IMG/VR virus record: IMGVR_UViG_3300010412_000044
Span: 1 to 49,453 of that record
Reading direction: 5' to 3' (one strand)
Source of the DNA: a virus
DNA length: 49,453 bases
The position numbers and the translations under genes were made by a program. The notes under the pieces are model-generated. The model was given only the letters and a program-made list of their open reading frames with translations. It was not told the origin of the DNA and did not search any database. Shown one piece after another: positions 2,063-11,306 of the stretch (its first letter is position 1; every line of letters begins with the position of its first letter).

Positions 2063-5000
2063 ATGGCTGATTACACAACCAAAGATTTCAACGTTACCCC
2101 ATACAGGGACGACTTTGTTTTCTATCGCAACTTTCTACGCATTCTATTCAAGCCAGCCGCGGCTGTACAGGCACGCGAACTGACACAGTTGCAGACCGCC
2201 GCTCAGTGGCAGATGCAACAGTTGGCGAATCACATCTTCAAAGATGGTTCGCCCGTTTCTGGTGCCGAAATCAAGGTCACCAAAAACGCGCCATACATTG
2301 AAGTAGAATTGCAGGATATCACACAGGTCGGTACTTCGACGCAGATCAGCGGCAATGCTGCTGAACTGGTTGGACAGTACATTCAGGGCTGGGATGGTAG
2401 CGCAGGCGGCACAGCTTCGAACCCATCTGGCCCGCTGGCTAAAGTTATTGCGGTTGATAACATCGGTGGCTCACCAGCAAAGGTACGCTTGCAGTTGGAT
2501 TACGTAGGTGGTCAATTCACTACGAATAATGCACTGATCAGCGGTCACTTCATGACGGTGAATTACAACGACAACGATGCCACCGATTTCCCTACAAAGT
2601 ATCAGACCTCTTACCTTGCTGCAACTGACAACATTTCTGGCATTGGTACAGGTATGCGCGCCAACGTTTCGGAAGGTGTTGTGTGGATCAACGGGTTCTT
2701 CTGTGCTGTGCTACCTCAGGTGGCATTCATTACGAAGACGGGCACCACGGGTACGTTTGTTGTTGGTTATGAATATCGTGAAGTAACGCTTACGGCCAAC
2801 GACACAACAGAACTTGACCCAGTGACGGCTGTTATTCTCGGTAACGAAATCAAGGATAACGCAACAGGTTCAAACAATGACGCGCCGGGTGCTGATCGTT
2901 ACATGGTAGAGGTTATGTTGACCTCTTACACAGATGGCACTCAGCCTAGCGAATTCCACCAAGTAATGAAGATCACCAATGGTGAGGTTGAGCAGAAACT
3001 TGAGAAGCCTGCCTACTCGGACATTCTTGATCTTTTGGCAAAGCGCACTTATGATGAATCTGGCAACTACACTGTTGAACCATTTTCACTGACTTCTGCC
3101 TACCAGTCAGGATCGAACTTCAATTACATGCTGGGTGCCGGGCGCGCCTATGCGTTTGGCTTTGAGCGTGAAAATCTGCTGCCATTGCCTATCTCAGCAT
3201 CGAAGCCGCGCACAACAAGAGATTACGCACCTGCGGCAATTTCTGCACTGTTTGGAACATACGTGCGTGAACGTGTGACTCCGGGAGTGGCGGTATTCGC
3301 CCCTGCTGATGTTAATGACACACCAAACACGATCACTATTCCGGGTCATAACTTTGAGAATGGTGACAAAGTTACCTACAGCAATGAAGGTAACACTTCG
3401 ATTACAGGTCCAACTTCTGGTAACGATTATTACATTATCAAGATCGATGACAATACATTGGCATTGGCGACAACGGCTGCAAACGCAACAGCTAAAACCA
3501 AGTTGACAATTGCTACTGGTTCAGGTACGGGCGATGGTCACTCATTGACCCCTGTTGGTGTTGAAACTCTAGGTGCATTCGACCCGACACTACCAACAAC
3601 TGTTTATCTCATGTCTGGTTTCTACGGAGTGGGTGAGCAAGTTGGTACGGTTAGGGTATTCATGCTTGACGATGACAACGGCCGCGTTCGCCTGTATCTC
3701 GCAGATAACAGGGAACTTGTTACCGACCTGCAAAGCACACGCTCAATCTGTGCTGTTGGTACAGGCTCGCCTAGTGCAACGGACGCATACGTAAACATTG
3801 AAGCGTTTACACCAAACAACATGACAGGCTACAATCAGCCAATCATTCAGTTGCAGCCTCATGTCAAGGAGTTGACCAATCTTGATTATGATCTGATTGT
3901 CAAGATTCCAAATATCAGCACTGTTGGTGCATTCACATTGACTGTTCCAGAAGCAGGTGATACTTTCTTCAATGATGAATATGCATCAATGATATTCGCC
4001 GTTAATACATCGACGGGTGTTGTTGCTGATTCACTGACATGTCTTGGAACAAACCCAACTGGTGGTGCAACTGGAACAATCACGGCTGACACTGATCATG
4101 GGTTGACTGGTAATCATGACTTTTACATGCATGTCAATCGCCCATCTTCAACCCCAAGGTCGAAGACGCTACAGCTTTCATCTGCATTTGACAGAACTGT
4201 AGGTGGCTCAAACACAACCGAAATCATTTTCAATAACGTTGCTGGTGACTGGACGGCAGGCGCTGGTCCGTATTGGGATGTTATTGCTATTGAGTCTGTC
4301 ATTGAAGACCCGAATGGTGCACCTGTTGATATTACAGACCAATGTACGCTAAATGTCAACCAGAAAGATTTCTACTACGGGTACTCTTCTATTACAGGCC
4401 CGTTTGATGCCAACACGGAATATCGTTTCCAGATTCATTACTTCTCTTGGGGCGCAACGGGTGATTACTTCACCATGAATTCATATGCACTCGGCTCTTC
4501 TACGCTTTATGGCGATCTTGAAGAGTTGAAGGCGAACATGCCAAGCTACACAAATGAAGCTGGCACCAAGAAGTGGAACCTGCGTGACGTTATCGATTTC
4601 CGCAAGTCAGAAAATGAACTGACCACTACGGCAAGAGAACTGGTTGTTCCTTACAGCACATTGAATGCAACCTACAGTCACTATCTGCCTAGGCGCGATA
4701 AGGTCTGGGTTGATAGGGATGGACGTTTTGGTGTGTCTGAGGGTATCGCAGAAGAAAATCCAAAGAGCCCACCAGATAAAGCGGGCACCATGACACTGTT
4801 CACTTCGCTACTTCTACCATACCTGTACGATCCTGATCCAGAAACCGTTTACGGTGCTGATCAGGTTGCTATTCAGCGTGTGGAGAATAAGAACTACACG
4901 ATGTTGGACATTCGCCACCTTGATCACCGCATTGCAAATCTGGAAGAGTACTCTTCTGAACTACAGCTTGAAATGGAAGCTTATTCAGATACGGTTGTTG

Positions 5001-8000
5001 ACTCTGCTGGAATGACTCGCGGCAAGAATGGTATCTTCGTTGACAACTTCAAGAATCACACCAAGGGTAACGTGTTCGAACCAACCTACCGTTGCTCTAT
5101 GGATAACATCGAAGGTGCGCTACACTGCCCGTATGAAATGAATCATATTGATTTCGAATACGATACGGATTCGGCTGTAGCAAGTTCACAACAGAACACC
5201 TCCGAAAAATTGGCACCTTGGGATCATGTCATTACACTTGGTGTTCTGTCAACCCCAACATGGGTTTCACAGCCTTATGCAACTGAGTGGATGAACATCA
5301 ACCCATTTGCAGTTACGACATGGGCTGGTGAAATTCTGATGAACCCGGCTTCTGACACTTGGGTTGAAACCCAGTACGCTCCGGCGGCTCAGGTTCACGA
5401 CCCAGAAGAAGCGGCTCGTATTCTTGCATTGTATCTACGCACGGATGCGGGCATCCCGAATTGGGGTGCATGGCAAACCCAGATCATTGGCGTTGACGTT
5501 ACAACATCAACCCGTAACGGAACATGGAGATCGGGTGGTAGAAGTGGGGCTGCCGTGGTGCGCGACACCACGACAACAACCACCGAGCGTTCAACCAGAA
5601 CTGGTACGATTGTTGTGCAAAGTGGAACAGATATCGTTACTCAGGATATGGGTGAGCGTGTCATTGACGTTTCTAGCATTCCTTGGATGCGCCCAATTGA
5701 TATCGAATTCGAAGCATTCGGATTGCGCCCATCTGTGGCTGTCGTGCCTTACTTTGCTGACACTGACGTTTCGGCCTATGTAACATGGGATGGTGCAAAC
5801 CCCGGAGGTGTTGCTAAGACCAACGGCTATGTTCGTGGTATTCTGAGCATCCCGGCTAAGACTTTCCGTACCGGTAAAAACGTATTGACGCTGAAAGATG
5901 CACCAAGCCAGCCAACAAGCATTGCGTCTACCGAGTTCAATGCACAAGGTACATTGTACACTCGCCAGCAACAGATTCTTTCTGTTGAGGTGCCTGTTTA
6001 CACCACAAGGGCTATTTCGGAGAATCGTGACCGCACAACATCTTCAACTGAAACTACGTTTGTGCGCTGGCGCGACCCGATTGCCCAGACTATTCTGGTT
6101 GAAGATGAAGGCGGTATCTTCTTGTCTGGTATCGATGTATACTTCTACAGTAAGGATCGTTACCTGCCAGTATCACTATACATTGTTGAGACTATCGCGG
6201 GCGTACCGGGACAGAAGATCGTACCTTACTCAATGGTTACGGTCGAAGCTGACGATGTTGTTGCAACGAAATGGAATAATTCACTGAAACAGGTTGAGTA
6301 TAGCGGGCATCATTACAATACAGAAGGTACGGTGCTTGCACACTCCGATGGCGACCCAGTTTCTGGTTCACCAACTGACTTCGTACCGACCTCATTTAAT
6401 TTTAGTGACCCAATCTATCTGAAAGAAGGCGTTGAATATGCATTCGTGTTGTTGTCAAATAGCAACAATTACAACGCATACATTTCTCGCATGGGTAACT
6501 TCAACATCATTCCAGAAGTGGGTGAAGATATCGGCGTTGGTGTTGACAAACAGCCGCACCTTGGCTCGCTGTTGAAGTCACAGAACACAAGCACATGGAC
6601 CCCTGATCAGTATGCGGATATCAAGTTTGACATTCGCCGTTGCGAGTTCGATACGGGTGCTTCGGCTCTGTACATGAGAACAAAGGGCCAGTGGGATTAC
6701 TTTGATTCGACTGCAACATACGTGTCTGGTGATGAGATTATCTTTGATCACGGTACTGATGGTCTATCTGTTTACCAGTGTATTTCTAGCACAAGTGCTG
6801 GAGAAAGCCCACAGACAACCCCTGCAAAATGGGTACGCATTGACGATGGTTTCTTCCTTGCAACCTCTTTGAACATTGCAAGCGATGAATTGATTATCAA
6901 TGGTACGTCTATTGCAAGGCAGTACTTGTTTGACCCGGATGTAACTTGGATCGATTACACCAACAAGGAAACAATTGATCTTGAGACTCAGGAAACAATC
7001 GAACTGTACACTGACGAATTGACACAGAACCCACGCGCAGGTAATAATGCATACCATGTCAACCTGAAAGTTCAGATGGCATCAACTGATTCCAAGTTGT
7101 CGCCTGTTATTAACAAGAATCGCACATTCGCGGCTGTTATTAACAATCTTGTACGCACTCCAGATGCCGATGCACCAGCCGGTGCTACAAAGGACTCAGG
7201 TGAGTACATTTCTGAAACAACCCAGTTGAAAGAAAACGCTTCATCATTGAAGGTGTTGATTGATGCGGCTCTACCAGATACAAACGCCATGGTTGTTCCG
7301 AAGTATCGCATTTTGAAAGAAGATGTGCGTTACGTCAATTGCGACCCGGCGCTTACTGTTGGAGTTCAGAATGAACCTAGCCTACATACTGCATTGAAAG
7401 ACCAGTGGTGCTATGTTTACCACTTTGACATGAATCTGGGTACGGGCGGCTCTACCCCTGCGGCATGGGAGCCACAGGATACGGTAATTGTCGATGGTGT
7501 TGATGTAGATAATGAAAGGGTTTATTTGTCAGGCGTATCAGACCCGAATAACTTTGTTGCGAAATCTGGATTGGGTTACACTAACCCATGGATCATGATC
7601 ACCAATGAACCAGACATTCTGACAAGCGAAATCAAGGTCTACGATGTTACTGATACCACAACAGGTGTTGCCGATGGTAACTACGTCTTCAACCCAACAG
7701 ACTACAACCTGTATCAGAATGTGTCTGGTGCCACGACATTCTCTGAGCCATCCGCAACAGGAACGGCTTGGAGACTAGTACCTGCACTTCTTGTTGACGG
7801 TGCAATTGCATTTGACACCGATGTTGAATGGCGTGAAATGGAACAGGTTGGAACTGTCAACCCATCGGTTGACACAACCCAGTTTGTTGAGTATGAATTT
7901 GAGCCGAAGATTAGCATATCTGAGGAATTTGATAACTTTGCAGTCAAGGTCGAAATGTACTCTGGTGATGCTGTCAATGTCCCAGTATGCAAACGACTAA

Positions 8001-8020
8001 GAGTAATAGCGGTGGATTAA
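2063..8020 (+). CDS. Giant DUF4815 baseplate/virion protein at the gp10 position
   Basis: This 1985-residue virion protein begins with the DUF4815 signature: 'AVQARELTQLQ' at residues 34-44 followed by 'ANHIFKDGS'. Other landmarks typical of the large T4-superfamily proteins of this type follow in order. They include a GHNFENGD...YYII beta-module near residue 430, 'HRIANLEEYSSELQLE' near 955, a 'PWMRPIDIEFEAFGLRPS' segment near 1206, 'FRTGKNVLTL' near 1268, and 'DPIAQTILVEDEGGIFLSGIDV' split around 1337-1360. Gene order (directly after gp8) puts it where T4 has gp9 and gp10, and no separate gp9 is present. It probably forms the baseplate periphery that carries the fibres; the exact role is inference. 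No clear Shine-Dalgarno beyond weak purines precedes it, so it is likely translated by coupling to gp8. Confidence 0.8.
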   Translation: MADYTTKDFNVTPYRDDFVFYRNFLRILFKPAAAVQARELTQLQTAAQWQMQQLANHIFKDGSPVSGAEIKVTKNAPYIEVELQDITQVGTSTQISGNAAELVGQYIQGWDGSAGGTASNPSGPLAKVIAVDNIGGSPAKVRLQLDYVGGQFTTNNALISGHFMTVNYNDNDATDFPTKYQTSYLAATDNISGIGTGMRANVSEGVVWINGFFCAVLPQVAFITKTGTTGTFVVGYEYREVTLTANDTTELDPVTAVILGNEIKDNATGSNNDAPGADRYMVEVMLTSYTDGTQPSEFHQVMKITNGEVEQKLEKPAYSDILDLLAKRTYDESGNYTVEPFSLTSAYQSGSNFNYMLGAGRAYAFGFERENLLPLPISASKPRTTRDYAPAAISALFGTYVRERVTPGVAVFAPADVNDTPNTITIPGHNFENGDKVTYSNEGNTSITGPTSGNDYYIIKIDDNTLALATTAANATAKTKLTIATGSGTGDGHSLTPVGVETLGAFDPTLPTTVYLMSGFYGVGEQVGTVRVFMLDDDNGRVRLYLADNRELVTDLQSTRSICAVGTGSPSATDAYVNIEAFTPNNMTGYNQPIIQLQPHVKELTNLDYDLIVKIPNISTVGAFTLTVPEAGDTFFNDEYASMIFAVNTSTGVVADSLTCLGTNPTGGATGTITADTDHGLTGNHDFYMHVNRPSSTPRSKTLQLSSAFDRTVGGSNTTEIIFNNVAGDWTAGAGPYWDVIAIESVIEDPNGAPVDITDQCTLNVNQKDFYYGYSSITGPFDANTEYRFQIHYFSWGATGDYFTMNSYALGSSTLYGDLEELKANMPSYTNEAGTKKWNLRDVIDFRKSENELTTTARELVVPYSTLNATYSHYLPRRDKVWVDRDGRFGVSEGIAEENPKSPPDKAGTMTLFTSLLLPYLYDPDPETVYGADQVAIQRVENKNYTMLDIRHLDHRIANLEEYSSELQLEMEAYSDTVVDSAGMTRGKNGIFVDNFKNHTKGNVFEPTYRCSMDNIEGALHCPYEMNHIDFEYDTDSAVASSQQNTSEKLAPWDHVITLGVLSTPTWVSQPYATEWMNINPFAVTTWAGEILMNPASDTWVETQYAPAAQVHDPEEAARILALYLRTDAGIPNWGAWQTQIIGVDVTTSTRNGTWRSGGRSGAAVVRDTTTTTTERSTRTGTIVVQSGTDIVTQDMGERVIDVSSIPWMRPIDIEFEAFGLRPSVAVVPYFADTDVSAYVTWDGANPGGVAKTNGYVRGILSIPAKTFRTGKNVLTLKDAPSQPTSIASTEFNAQGTLYTRQQQILSVEVPVYTTRAISENRDRTTSSTETTFVRWRDPIAQTILVEDEGGIFLSGIDVYFYSKDRYLPVSLYIVETIAGVPGQKIVPYSMVTVEADDVVATKWNNSLKQVEYSGHHYNTEGTVLAHSDGDPVSGSPTDFVPTSFNFSDPIYLKEGVEYAFVLLSNSNNYNAYISRMGNFNIIPEVGEDIGVGVDKQPHLGSLLKSQNTSTWTPDQYADIKFDIRRCEFDTGASALYMRTKGQWDYFDSTATYVSGDEIIFDHGTDGLSVYQCISSTSAGESPQTTPAKWVRIDDGFFLATSLNIASDELIINGTSIARQYLFDPDVTWIDYTNKETIDLETQETIELYTDELTQNPRAGNNAYHVNLKVQMASTDSKLSPVINKNRTFAAVINNLVRTPDADAPAGATKDSGEYISETTQLKENASSLKVLIDAALPDTNAMVVPKYRILKEDVRYVNCDPALTVGVQNEPSLHTALKDQWCYVYHFDMNLGTGGSTPAAWEPQDTVIVDGVDVDNERVYLSGVSDPNNFVAKSGLGYTNPWIMITNEPDILTSEIKVYDVTDTTTGVADGNYVFNPTDYNLYQNVSGATTFSEPSATGTAWRLVPALLVDGAIAFDTDVEWREMEQVGTVNPSVDTTQFVEYEFEPKISISEEFDNFAVKVEMYSGDAVNVPVCKRLRVIAVD

Positions 8021-9439: not shown

Positions 9440-10216
9440 ATGCCTATTAGAATTGGCTCTACACTTGTAAATGATCTATACATTGGCTCAACTAGAGTCA
9501 ACCGTGTGTATGCTGGGTCATCCCTAGCATATCAACGTGACGAAATTACGGTTTTCGCAACCACAAGATCAACCAGCACAACGACTACAAGAGCAACATC
9601 TAGAAGTACAACGAGGTCAACAAGTACGACCACTATCAGGTCTACAAGCACCACAACCTCGCGTTGGACCAGCCATATTACGTCAACGAATACAACTGAA
9701 TCCAGATCAACATCTAGATCAACCTCTGGTTCTACTACCACGACATGGAATACTACTTCCATTACAACCAGAGAAACGAGCAGAACCACTACATGGCAGA
9801 CAACGACAACATATGATACGTCAGGTACTACCACGTATACAACAACATGGCAGACTGATACTTTTGATGCCGAACTTGGTACGATGTTCTGGTACAACAC
9901 CAATAGAGATACGAGCAGATCAACAAGCGGGTCAACGTCAAGATCGACCAATACAAGCCGAAGCACTACATTTTGGACCGCTTGGGATACGACAAGGTCA
10001 ACTTCTCGTTCAACTTCTACTTCTGTCACGACAACATATGTTACATCGTGGCAAACGTCAACTGACTGGACGACAAGCTACTGGTCGTATTTTAGCACCA
10101 CGTGGAATACGAATGTCACCACGACATGGAACACTACATATACCACAAACTACAATACCGCATTTACAACGACTTGGAATACAACCTACGATACTTCTAG
10201 AACCACTGTTTGGTAA
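9440..10216 (+). CDS. Ser/Thr-rich tetrapeptide-repeat virion protein
   Basis: The 258-residue product opens with three short repeats of the type IGSTxVNxxYxGS (residues 4-33), an anchoring motif seen at the N-terminus of phage tail and fibre proteins. Almost everything after residue 38 is Thr and Ser, interrupted every four or so residues by Arg in the first half (RSTS, RATS) and by Trp, Tyr or Phe in the second (WNTT, YTTN, FTTT). One short non-repeat island (DAELGTMFWYN) sits near residue 145. There are several Asn-x-Thr sites. The repeat could form a beta-rich stalk and is an obvious candidate for O-glycosylation, given the next-but-one gene. No known family was recognised beyond the N-terminal motif. 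Confidence 0.7.
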   Translation: MPIRIGSTLVNDLYIGSTRVNRVYAGSSLAYQRDEITVFATTRSTSTTTTRATSRSTTRSTSTTTIRSTSTTTSRWTSHITSTNTTESRSTSRSTSGSTTTTWNTTSITTRETSRTTTWQTTTTYDTSGTTTYTTTWQTDTFDAELGTMFWYNTNRDTSRSTSGSTSRSTNTSRSTTFWTAWDTTRSTSRSTSTSVTTTYVTSWQTSTDWTTSYWSYFSTTWNTNVTTTWNTTYTTNYNTAFTTTWNTTYDTSRTTVW

Positions 10217-10228
10217 GAGGATTACATT

Positions 10229-10441
10229 ATGAGTGATATTGAAAAACGAGTTGAGAAACTTGAAACCCTGTATGAGCAGACGGACAAGAATATTGAAGAT
10301 TTGGCCCGTCTTATCGATAACCACCAATTGAGAGTAAAGACTGAGATTACAAATCTTACCAGTCACTTGGTTAGTGCATTCGAACCTCAGATTCGCAAAA
10401 TTGTACGTGATGAGTGGGAGAAATTGAATGGGGGTCTTTAA
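10229..10441 (+). CDS. Small coiled-coil protein (70 aa)
   Basis: This short protein is predicted by eye to be almost entirely helical, with heptad spacing of Leu, Ile and Val from residue 4 to 55 (EKRVEKLETLYEQ, IEDLARLIDNHQLRV). A GAGG Shine-Dalgarno lies upstream (taagaggattacatt). Its end overlaps the next gene by 14 bases. The family is not recognised. Its place between the Ser/Thr-rich protein and the transferase-like gene suggests a chaperone or a trimerisation partner, but this is a guess from context. Confidence 0.65.
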   Translation: MSDIEKRVEKLETLYEQTDKNIEDLARLIDNHQLRVKTEITNLTSHLVSAFEPQIRKIVRDEWEKLNGGL

Positions 10442-11306
10442 TTTCGGTGATAAACATATCGATAGCAAAAGGCTCATTAAAGACAAATCATATCATCTAG
10501 TAAGAGAAGAGAATCTAAAAATCTCAGAGAAGACTGGTATGGTTTTTGTCGCCGCTTGTAAAGAGCGCGGTATCAAGATTCAGTATGATATCAGCTACGG
10601 TGGTCATCCACATGAACTTAGATATACTGAATTCTTCGGTAACGTAGGTGGTATCTATTCCACCCCATGTTGCGGTCGGTTCTTTCGTTTCATGTTGAGT
10701 AAGAGTTACGATACATCGAAAAACAAAGATTATTCCGATTACATTCACGGGCGTTTGGATAAATACATATTGCACCATTATGATATTCCAGAAATGGAAT
10801 GTTCAGCTTTATTACCCGGCTCAAATCTTTTGAGAAAAACAGTTGATAAACGCCGACTGAATGCATGTGCCGATCTCGGTGGGAAGATTAAACCCCACCC
10901 ATTGACAAATGAAGCTGATCTTGAACGCCTGAGGCGTGAATATAAAGATCAGATCATACCAGAAATGTATTCTGGTTTCAATGTCATGATGAAATCGAAA
11001 TTCATCTTTGGCACGGGTGCAAGCGAACTTAGCCTATATGCTATGTTGCTAAATAAATTTGTAATCGACATGTCTAATAAAACCCCCGGTGGTGGGTATT
11101 ATGACTTGTTTGCTCAATCAGTGGATTATACTGATAACCAAAAAGCACGATTGAATTGGATTTTGAACCATCCGGGAATTGGTGTGTTCATGCCAGATGA
11201 TTACGAAACAACGATCCCGGCGTTTCTTGATTGGTATCAGGCAGCACTTGAGGAATATCGTACAATTGTCGCGGCCGACTCAAACCTGCGACCGAAGAAA
11301 TCATAA
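10428..11306 (+). CDS. Possible GT-B-type glycosyltransferase
   Basis: The C-terminal half has a layout seen in GT-B sugar or glycerophosphate transferases of polysaccharide synthesis: a 'KIKPHP' motif near residue 155 followed by acidic and basic helices. About 45 residues later comes FIFGTGASELSLYAMLLNK, resembling the nucleotide-sugar binding 'G-SS-----A---GKP' region. The N-terminal half has a Cys pair (TPCCGRFF, residues 84-91) and no recognised motif. Length is 292 residues. The start is the ATG at 10428, preceded by GGGAGA inside the upstream gene. It lies just after the Ser/Thr-rich virion gene, so one possible job is glycosylating that protein. The assignment is from pattern only and could be wrong; a non-enzymatic homologue is possible. 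Confidence 0.45.
   Translation: MGVFNFGDKHIDSKRLIKDKSYHLVREENLKISEKTGMVFVAACKERGIKIQYDISYGGHPHELRYTEFFGNVGGIYSTPCCGRFFRFMLSKSYDTSKNKDYSDYIHGRLDKYILHHYDIPEMECSALLPGSNLLRKTVDKRRLNACADLGGKIKPHPLTNEADLERLRREYKDQIIPEMYSGFNVMMKSKFIFGTGASELSLYAMLLNKFVIDMSNKTPGGGYYDLFAQSVDYTDNQKARLNWILNHPGIGVFMPDDYETTIPAFLDWYQAALEEYRTIVAADSNLRPKKS

Follow-up and report, generated by a model that had tools for sequence, protein, structure and literature searches.

A probable tail protein of Ser/Thr repeats encoded beside a predicted GT-B glycosyltransferase: a probable virion-glycosylation cassette of tailed phages

Virion glycosylation by phage-encoded glycosyltransferases is known from mycobacteriophages. In Gram-positive bacteria, serine-rich-repeat adhesins have dedicated glycosyltransferases (GtfA/GtfB, adding O-GlcNAc) and an accessory Sec export system. 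The enzymes closest to the one considered here are the retaining CMP-Kdo transferases KpsC, WbbB, and KrkA, which have a modified GT-B fold and between them cover all three families with solved structures. A (K/R)xHP motif binds CMP in sialyltransferases as well as in the retaining Kdo transferases, and in KrkA a Ser and a Glu contact the phosphate/ribose (PMC12887879). The nucleophilic Asp of retaining beta-Kdo transferases is supplied by a QXXXD motif, and Lys133/Tyr134 of KpsC contact the Kdo sugar (PMC10148158). Capsid glycosylation has also been suggested in a genome note (PMC11256854).

The locus described here pairs a Ser/Thr tetrapeptide-repeat (STR) protein with a glycosyltransferase-like enzyme, and resembles each of these systems in part. 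As in mycobacteriophages, a phage-encoded glycosyltransferase is inferred to modify a virion protein; however, the proteins modified in mycobacteriophages, from the capsid or the tail, have nothing unusual in their composition, whereas the STR protein would be a dedicated acceptor encoded next door, and the enzyme belongs to a different family. A Ser/Thr low-complexity stalk with a dedicated transferase gene alongside is the arrangement of the serine-rich-repeat adhesins too, but here the combination is of a CMP-type GT-B candidate and a phage virion. The composition of mucin-type (PTS) domains, rich in Pro, Thr, and Ser, is not matched, as the STR protein is Thr/Ser-rich with a single Pro in 258 aa and has an aromatic/Arg spacer. 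KpsC (GT107), WbbB (GT99), and KrkA (GT140) are the best, though remote, structural matches of the enzyme model in the PDB; the enzyme has a K-x-H-P motif and a Lys-Tyr pair in the linker region as they do, and its profile finds KpsC. It differs in lacking QXXXD, in being shorter (about 290 aa), in being encoded by a phage beside a Ser/Thr-repeat protein, and in its putative acceptor, which would be a protein where theirs are glycans or lipids. Bacterial sialyl- and polysialyltransferases (GT38, GT52, GT80) have the HP motif in common with it, but they are not among its best structure matches, and acceptor and context are unlike. We found no description of the pair in the open literature, and even in KVP40 and other well-studied phages its genes carry no annotation. 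Our preferred reading, to which we give a probability of roughly 0.7, is that of a two-gene (often three-gene) virion-glycosylation cassette in which a GT-B enzyme of the CMP-keto-sugar-acid class glycosylates the STR protein as a tail appendage.

The window, meaning the whole stretch analyzed, is a virus record of 49,453 bases from a tailed phage, T4-like by its portal, head closure, scaffold, and baseplate wedge genes. The STR gene, a 70-aa gene, and the enzyme gene form one operon, all on the + strand (Table 1), and the latter two overlap by 14 nt. The first-pass annotation of this DNA had set the enzyme two genes on from the repeat gene; the gene between the two is that of the probable coiled coil (10229-10441). 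Small genes hold the middle position elsewhere as well (72 aa in KVP40, 70 aa in 6E35.1a, 84 aa in the jumbo phage L006, 52-54 aa in the L012/L014 group, and also in F86), and in Stenotrophomonas phage DLP_6 a small coiled-coil gene likewise precedes the enzyme gene. The tail-fibre-like gene is directly upstream of the STR gene, and a tail fibre directly precedes the repeat gene in Lullwater and BL198 too. Further upstream, a DUF4815 protein of 1985 aa (2063-8020) is Thr/Arg-rich in short stretches (RDTTTTTTERSTRTG, NRDRTTSSTETTFVR), which look like the STR and fall below the repeat threshold. An antisense ORF of 165 aa (9532-10029, -), mostly Val, Leu, Asp, and Glu, is a by-product of the codon make-up of the repeat.

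Table 1. Features of the STR-enzyme locus (positions are those of the window)
Feature	Position	Strand	Basis or remark
Tail-fibre-like protein, 411 aa	8188..9423	+	C-terminal phage tail tip domain, Pfam Phage_tail_C PF24243, E 2.6e-13
N-terminal anchor of STR protein	9440..9541	+	Three IGSTxV..Y units, read directly
Ser/Thr tetrapeptide-repeat (STR) region, unit [WYFR]-x-T-[ST]	9542..10216	+	Period-4 autocorrelation, protein-level repeat, same unit in relatives; proposed glycan acceptor and tail-tip stalk/adhesin
Probable coiled-coil protein, 70 aa (small middle gene)	10229..10441	+	Weak matches, to coiled-coil families only
Glycosyltransferase-like protein, 292 aa, phrog_26179	10428..11306	+	PHROG profile, AlphaFold2 models, Foldseek, hmmsearch of PDB
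Lys112-Tyr113	10761..10766	+	Invariant, 39/39; order in chain matches KpsC Lys133/Tyr134
K-P-H-P-L-T, (K/R)xHP CMP-binding motif	10890..10907	+	K, H, and second P invariant
Ser199-Glu200	11022..11027	+	S/T 39/39, E 38/39; putative counterparts of the KrkA Ser and Glu that bind phosphate/ribose

The STR ORF (9440-10216, +) encodes 258 aa, of which 53% are Ser or Thr (Thr 37%), 12% are Tyr, Trp, or Phe, and 8% are Arg. When spacings were compared with those in 300 shuffles of the protein's own residues, Thr-Thr pairs were enriched at lags 4, 8, and 12 (z = 4.8, 4.6, and 2.4), as were pairs of Tyr/Trp/Phe/Arg (z = 5.6, 5.3, and 3.0), and z was near zero or negative at the remaining lags from 1 to 11. 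A Ser/Thr-rich product with a spacer about every four residues, as had been proposed on first reading, is therefore what the period test recovers, and no other ORF in the window passes it. The unit, [Trp/Tyr/Phe/Arg]-x-Thr-[Ser/Thr], is also found in relatives. Contrary to what had been suggested, Arg extends beyond the first half of the protein, given that RSTSGSTSRSTN occurs in the second half too. The codons are mixed (for Thr, 33 ACA, 20 ACT, 22 ACG, and 20 ACC, and Ser is mixed as well), and no DNA-level array was found in the gene, in which Tandem Repeats Finder reported only a single 2.3-copy 12-mer. On these grounds we reject an origin by DNA slippage and conclude that the pattern is maintained by selection on the protein.

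The repeated N terminus of the STR protein is likely an anchor. Three IGSTxV...Y copies had been claimed for it; the anchor is indeed present, reading IGSTLVNDLY, IGSTRVNRVY, and AGSSLAY, and the last of these is degenerate. Anchors differ by lineage (e.g., GAISL..YYRGG in KVP40 and a triple NDNGTLRQ repeat in L012), and in some cases the repeat is fused to a structural protein. In L153/L179 its fusion partner is a baseplate wedge subunit (phrog_17744, E 1e-136 or better), and in L006 the partner is a virion structural protein (E 1.5e-79). At several loci (L193:3020-6655, L127, L194, and L120) two different STR genes stand in tandem ahead of one enzyme gene. By sequence comparison with solved structures, none resembles the STR, and Pfam, NCBIfam, and PHROGs hold no named function for either the STR protein or the 292-aa enzyme.

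The enzyme matches phrog_26179, a family of unknown function (E 5.1e-25, residues 26-268), and so do 39 of its 39 relatives. The latter were gathered by alignment-based scans of viral contigs together with a scan for the DNA repeat pattern; the window enzyme used as a single-protein query of viral contigs retrieved no relatives, and scans of genome contigs found none. Direct phage relatives include Cr30, Lullwater, BL198, and other Caulobacter phages, as well as DLP_6. The family comprises 40 clusters at 85% identity, with a median pairwise identity of 24%. In spite of this range, Asp54, Thr67, Lys112, Tyr113, Gly131, Lys155, His157, Pro158, and Gly252 are invariant in 39/39 aligned sequences (Glu200 in 38/39), so that K-x-H-P is complete throughout. 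Both KPHP (residues 155-158) and FGTGASELSLYAMLLNK, from which a GT-B transferase had been guessed, are present as written in the 292-aa ORF (10428-11306).

A first AlphaFold2 model, built from 15 sequences (pLDDT 83), gave mixed GT-B matches. For a deeper model (39 sequences, pLDDT 87, pTM 0.85), the top seven Foldseek matches in the PDB are all WbbB, KpsC, or KrkA, with probabilities of 0.84-1.00, E values of 1.7e-3 to 8.7e-3, and TM scores of about 0.34-0.41; as E exceeds 1e-3 and TM is 0.3-0.4, the assignment to the CMP-Kdo class is a remote one. The GT-B guess holds up in structure search and may be narrowed to a CMP-keto-sugar-acid-dependent GT-B enzyme. In BFVD, the enzyme matches a viral "Capsule polysaccharide biosynthesis protein" (E 8.2e-4). 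Independently of structure, an hmmsearch of PDB sequences with the enzyme profile returned KpsC as its four best matches (E 0.007-0.019). Among Pfam families, Capsule_synth (PF05159) is matched at E <= 1 by five of the 39 members (best 7.9e-4), below its cut-off, and neither the window protein nor the window record has a match to it; A-2_8-polyST (polysialyltransferase) is matched weakly by three of 39 (best E 0.025). A weak BFVD match of the model (E 0.035) is A0A6J5PJY0, a 545-aa phage protein named acylneuraminate cytidylyltransferase, which may combine a CMP-sugar synthase with a related transferase in one chain.

The QXXXD motif is absent from the enzyme family, in which the matching strand-loop reads PG(S/H)N (Gly131 in 39/39, Asn133 in 37/39). 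Because this nucleophile is missing, we do not assign the enzyme to GT99, GT107, or GT140; it is probably a distant relative of the CMP-Kdo/CMP-sialate transferases and is predicted to work as they do.

Failure to find the two genes together in other phages had been named beforehand as a refuting outcome, as had the lack of a transferase fold in structure search; neither came about. We approached co-occurrence from both sides. In the enzyme-first direction, 25 divergent clusters, chosen by the enzyme alone and with sufficient upstream DNA, were considered, and ORFs of at least 150 aa from the same loci served as controls. An STR ORF ends within 1.6 kb upstream of the enzyme in 23 of the 25, and none of 180 other ORFs passes (Fisher p about 2e-28, a value that overstates independence since the loci are related). 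The misses are Cr30, in which the upstream ORF is Tyr/Thr-rich, 116 aa long, below the repeat threshold, and looks like a degenerate STR, and DLP_6, which has the enzyme and small coiled coil and lacks the STR gene. In DLP_6, a long unannotated ORF with Ig-like repeats (at least 1351 aa; L005:15870-18490 and L002:230-1660) lies at the record ends, before the coiled coil and enzyme; it seemingly spans the terminal repeats of the record, suggesting that the record break is artificial.

For the repeat-first direction, a tblastn search of phages with the STR protein found nothing, which we attribute to masking of the repeat by low-complexity filtering, so loci were chosen by the DNA pattern T-T-[YF]-x-T-T-[YF]-x-T-T alone. 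Twenty-two of these loci contain an STR ORF followed by 1 kb or more of sequence, and in 18 of them the enzyme lies no more than 205 bp downstream. One of the others, L094, we rejected as an STR gene (it is an L-T-T-rich low-complexity frame that exceeds the threshold), and it is nevertheless counted as a miss; L153, L179, and L186 are true STR genes with no enzyme in the locus DNA examined, and the first two of these are the baseplate wedge fusions noted above. Carriers range over T4-like phages (Cr30, KVP40), T7-like phages (Lullwater, BL198), prophage-type loci (L007-L009), and the 250-kb L006. The STR and enzyme are thus a widespread cassette. The isolated carriers, which are few, all come from Gram-negative hosts.

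At matched sites in related phages, the STR and enzyme are either both present or both absent. Within Schizotequatrovirus and relatives, KVP40 (KVP40.0254-.0256), 6E35.1a, and F86 have anchor plus STR, coiled coil, and enzyme at one site. The corresponding site in ValKK3, VH7D, and nt-1 codes for a GxISLxD-type anchor that leads into a globular end (with FG-GAP repeats in nt-1), and the enzyme is missing; in K566 both the anchored protein and the enzyme are missing. K566 and K567 are without the cassette that close relatives carry (compare K566, L213, with 6E35.1a, L209); an island in the cassette region is reported to have been replaced in these phages, and the receptor to have changed from OmpK to LamB (PMC12028318). 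The tail fibre of the Percyvirus BL198 is 408 aa long and is followed by the STR and then the enzyme; the first 290 residues of this fibre are 59% identical to the fibre of Percy. Percy and KSC have long fibres (1013 and 1054 aa, respectively), no STR, and no enzyme. This comparison indicates that the cassette substitutes for the distal tail fibre.

Other sugar genes follow the enzyme at some loci: GT8, GT2, and GT8 genes in L006, GT4 and GT25 genes in L120, and an NDP-sugar epimerase/dehydratase gene in L050, for which a glycan pathway is the simplest reading. The GT25-type transferase of L120 (L120:1-1245, -) is fused to an OGFOD2-like dioxygenase domain. In many marine loci (L024:4442-4789, L050, L064, L065, L069, L070, L075, and L078), a small Cys-rich protein with CxxC...CGCFMPAKxR (DUF6171 in L024) adjoins the enzyme.

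With an STR tail protein and a sugar-attaching enzyme encoded side by side, the virions probably carry a mucin-like tail appendage coated in sugar. Under the proposed mechanism, the N-terminal module would fix the STR protein to the tail or baseplate, with the Ser/Thr repeat projecting outward, and the phrog_26179 protein would act as a GT-B glycosyltransferase of the CMP-keto-sugar-acid class. The donor, drawn from the Gram-negative host, may be CMP-Kdo or a CMP-activated nonulosonic acid (e.g., pseudaminic acid). Almost all Gram-negative hosts with LPS produce CMP-Kdo, and either donor fits the host range of the isolated carriers. The sugar would be joined to repeat hydroxyls (O-glycosylation) in the cytoplasm during assembly, and in some phages further glycosyltransferases may lengthen the glycan. 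The product would be a stiff, charged, mucin-like appendage for adsorption, serving as a distal tail-fibre substitute or as a stalk, and it may also shield the particle. The repeat, its pairing with the enzyme gene, the joint presence or absence of the two, the resemblance in fold, the CMP-type motif, and repeat domains fused to known virion proteins are observed; we infer the action of the enzyme on the STR, the donor sugar, the virion location in the window phage, and the role of the glycan. The first-pass reading of a mucin-like stalk or adhesin, putatively decorated by an adjacent transferase, is supported by the structure search and the co-occurrence; the predicted modification is better put as "glycosylated by its neighbour" than as "self-glycosylating". 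A more specific version, which we hold only tentatively and consider rather doubtful, is that of a dedicated protein O-Kdo (or O-nonulosonate) transferase that diverts host CMP-Kdo to the Ser/Thr residues of the STR, in a reaction without the QXXXD nucleophile, giving a bottlebrush-like tail tip of LPS sugar.

The closest structural relatives of the enzyme act on capsule and LPS, and it might therefore modify the host surface, blocking superinfection or altering receptors, with the STR protein as its partner in adsorption and not its substrate. The cassette-free K566 and K567 would fit, as their receptor is LamB and not OmpK, and they acquired another glycosyltransferase along with PagP in that region (PMC12028318). 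However, the enzyme trails STR genes inside tail-gene clusters across phage types, and its partner is specifically the Ser/Thr repeat: where a protein at that locus keeps the anchor and lacks the repeat, no enzyme accompanies it. We consider a host-surface role improbable, and think slightly less still of the idea that the STR is a bare structural fibre (beta-structured or extended, with aromatic stacking) and that the enzyme has some other role in virion assembly, transferring no sugar to the STR. A regular fibre could well be built on an aromatic residue or Arg at each fourth position, and both the dissimilarity of the STR sequence to any solved structure and the missing QXXXD motif are in keeping with it, yet it leaves unexplained why a CMP-sugar-type GT-B fold should be tied to the repeat, and why GT8, GT2, GT4, and GT25 genes accompany the pair at some loci.

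It could also be argued that the two genes are merely neighbours in a conserved tail module, inherited together with no functional tie, and flanking genes are indeed common to many marine loci. This we regard as very unlikely, because the flanks differ among T4-like, T7-like, prophage, and jumbo carriers and yet the pair persists, the enzymes have diverged to the median identity given above, and STR and enzyme are jointly absent at two separate sites.

KVP40 was sequenced in 2003. Reading the pair as a virion-glycosylation cassette names a likely function for widespread, unannotated genes of model phages (KVP40 and the Caulobacter phages), and predicts glycoprotein stalks on the tails of carriers, built from a CMP-type sugar donor. 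If this is true, host sugar metabolism has a part in phage adsorption, receptor use and shielding may be governed by glycans on the tail, and the family provides compact enzymes that glycosylate a simple repeat. Should the O-Kdo or O-nonulosonate version be true, it would be a novel form of protein glycosylation and, for phages generally, another option in place of the distal tail fibre. The exchange, within one genus, of a long fibre for a short fibre plus repeat and enzyme points to a new route of tail-tip evolution.
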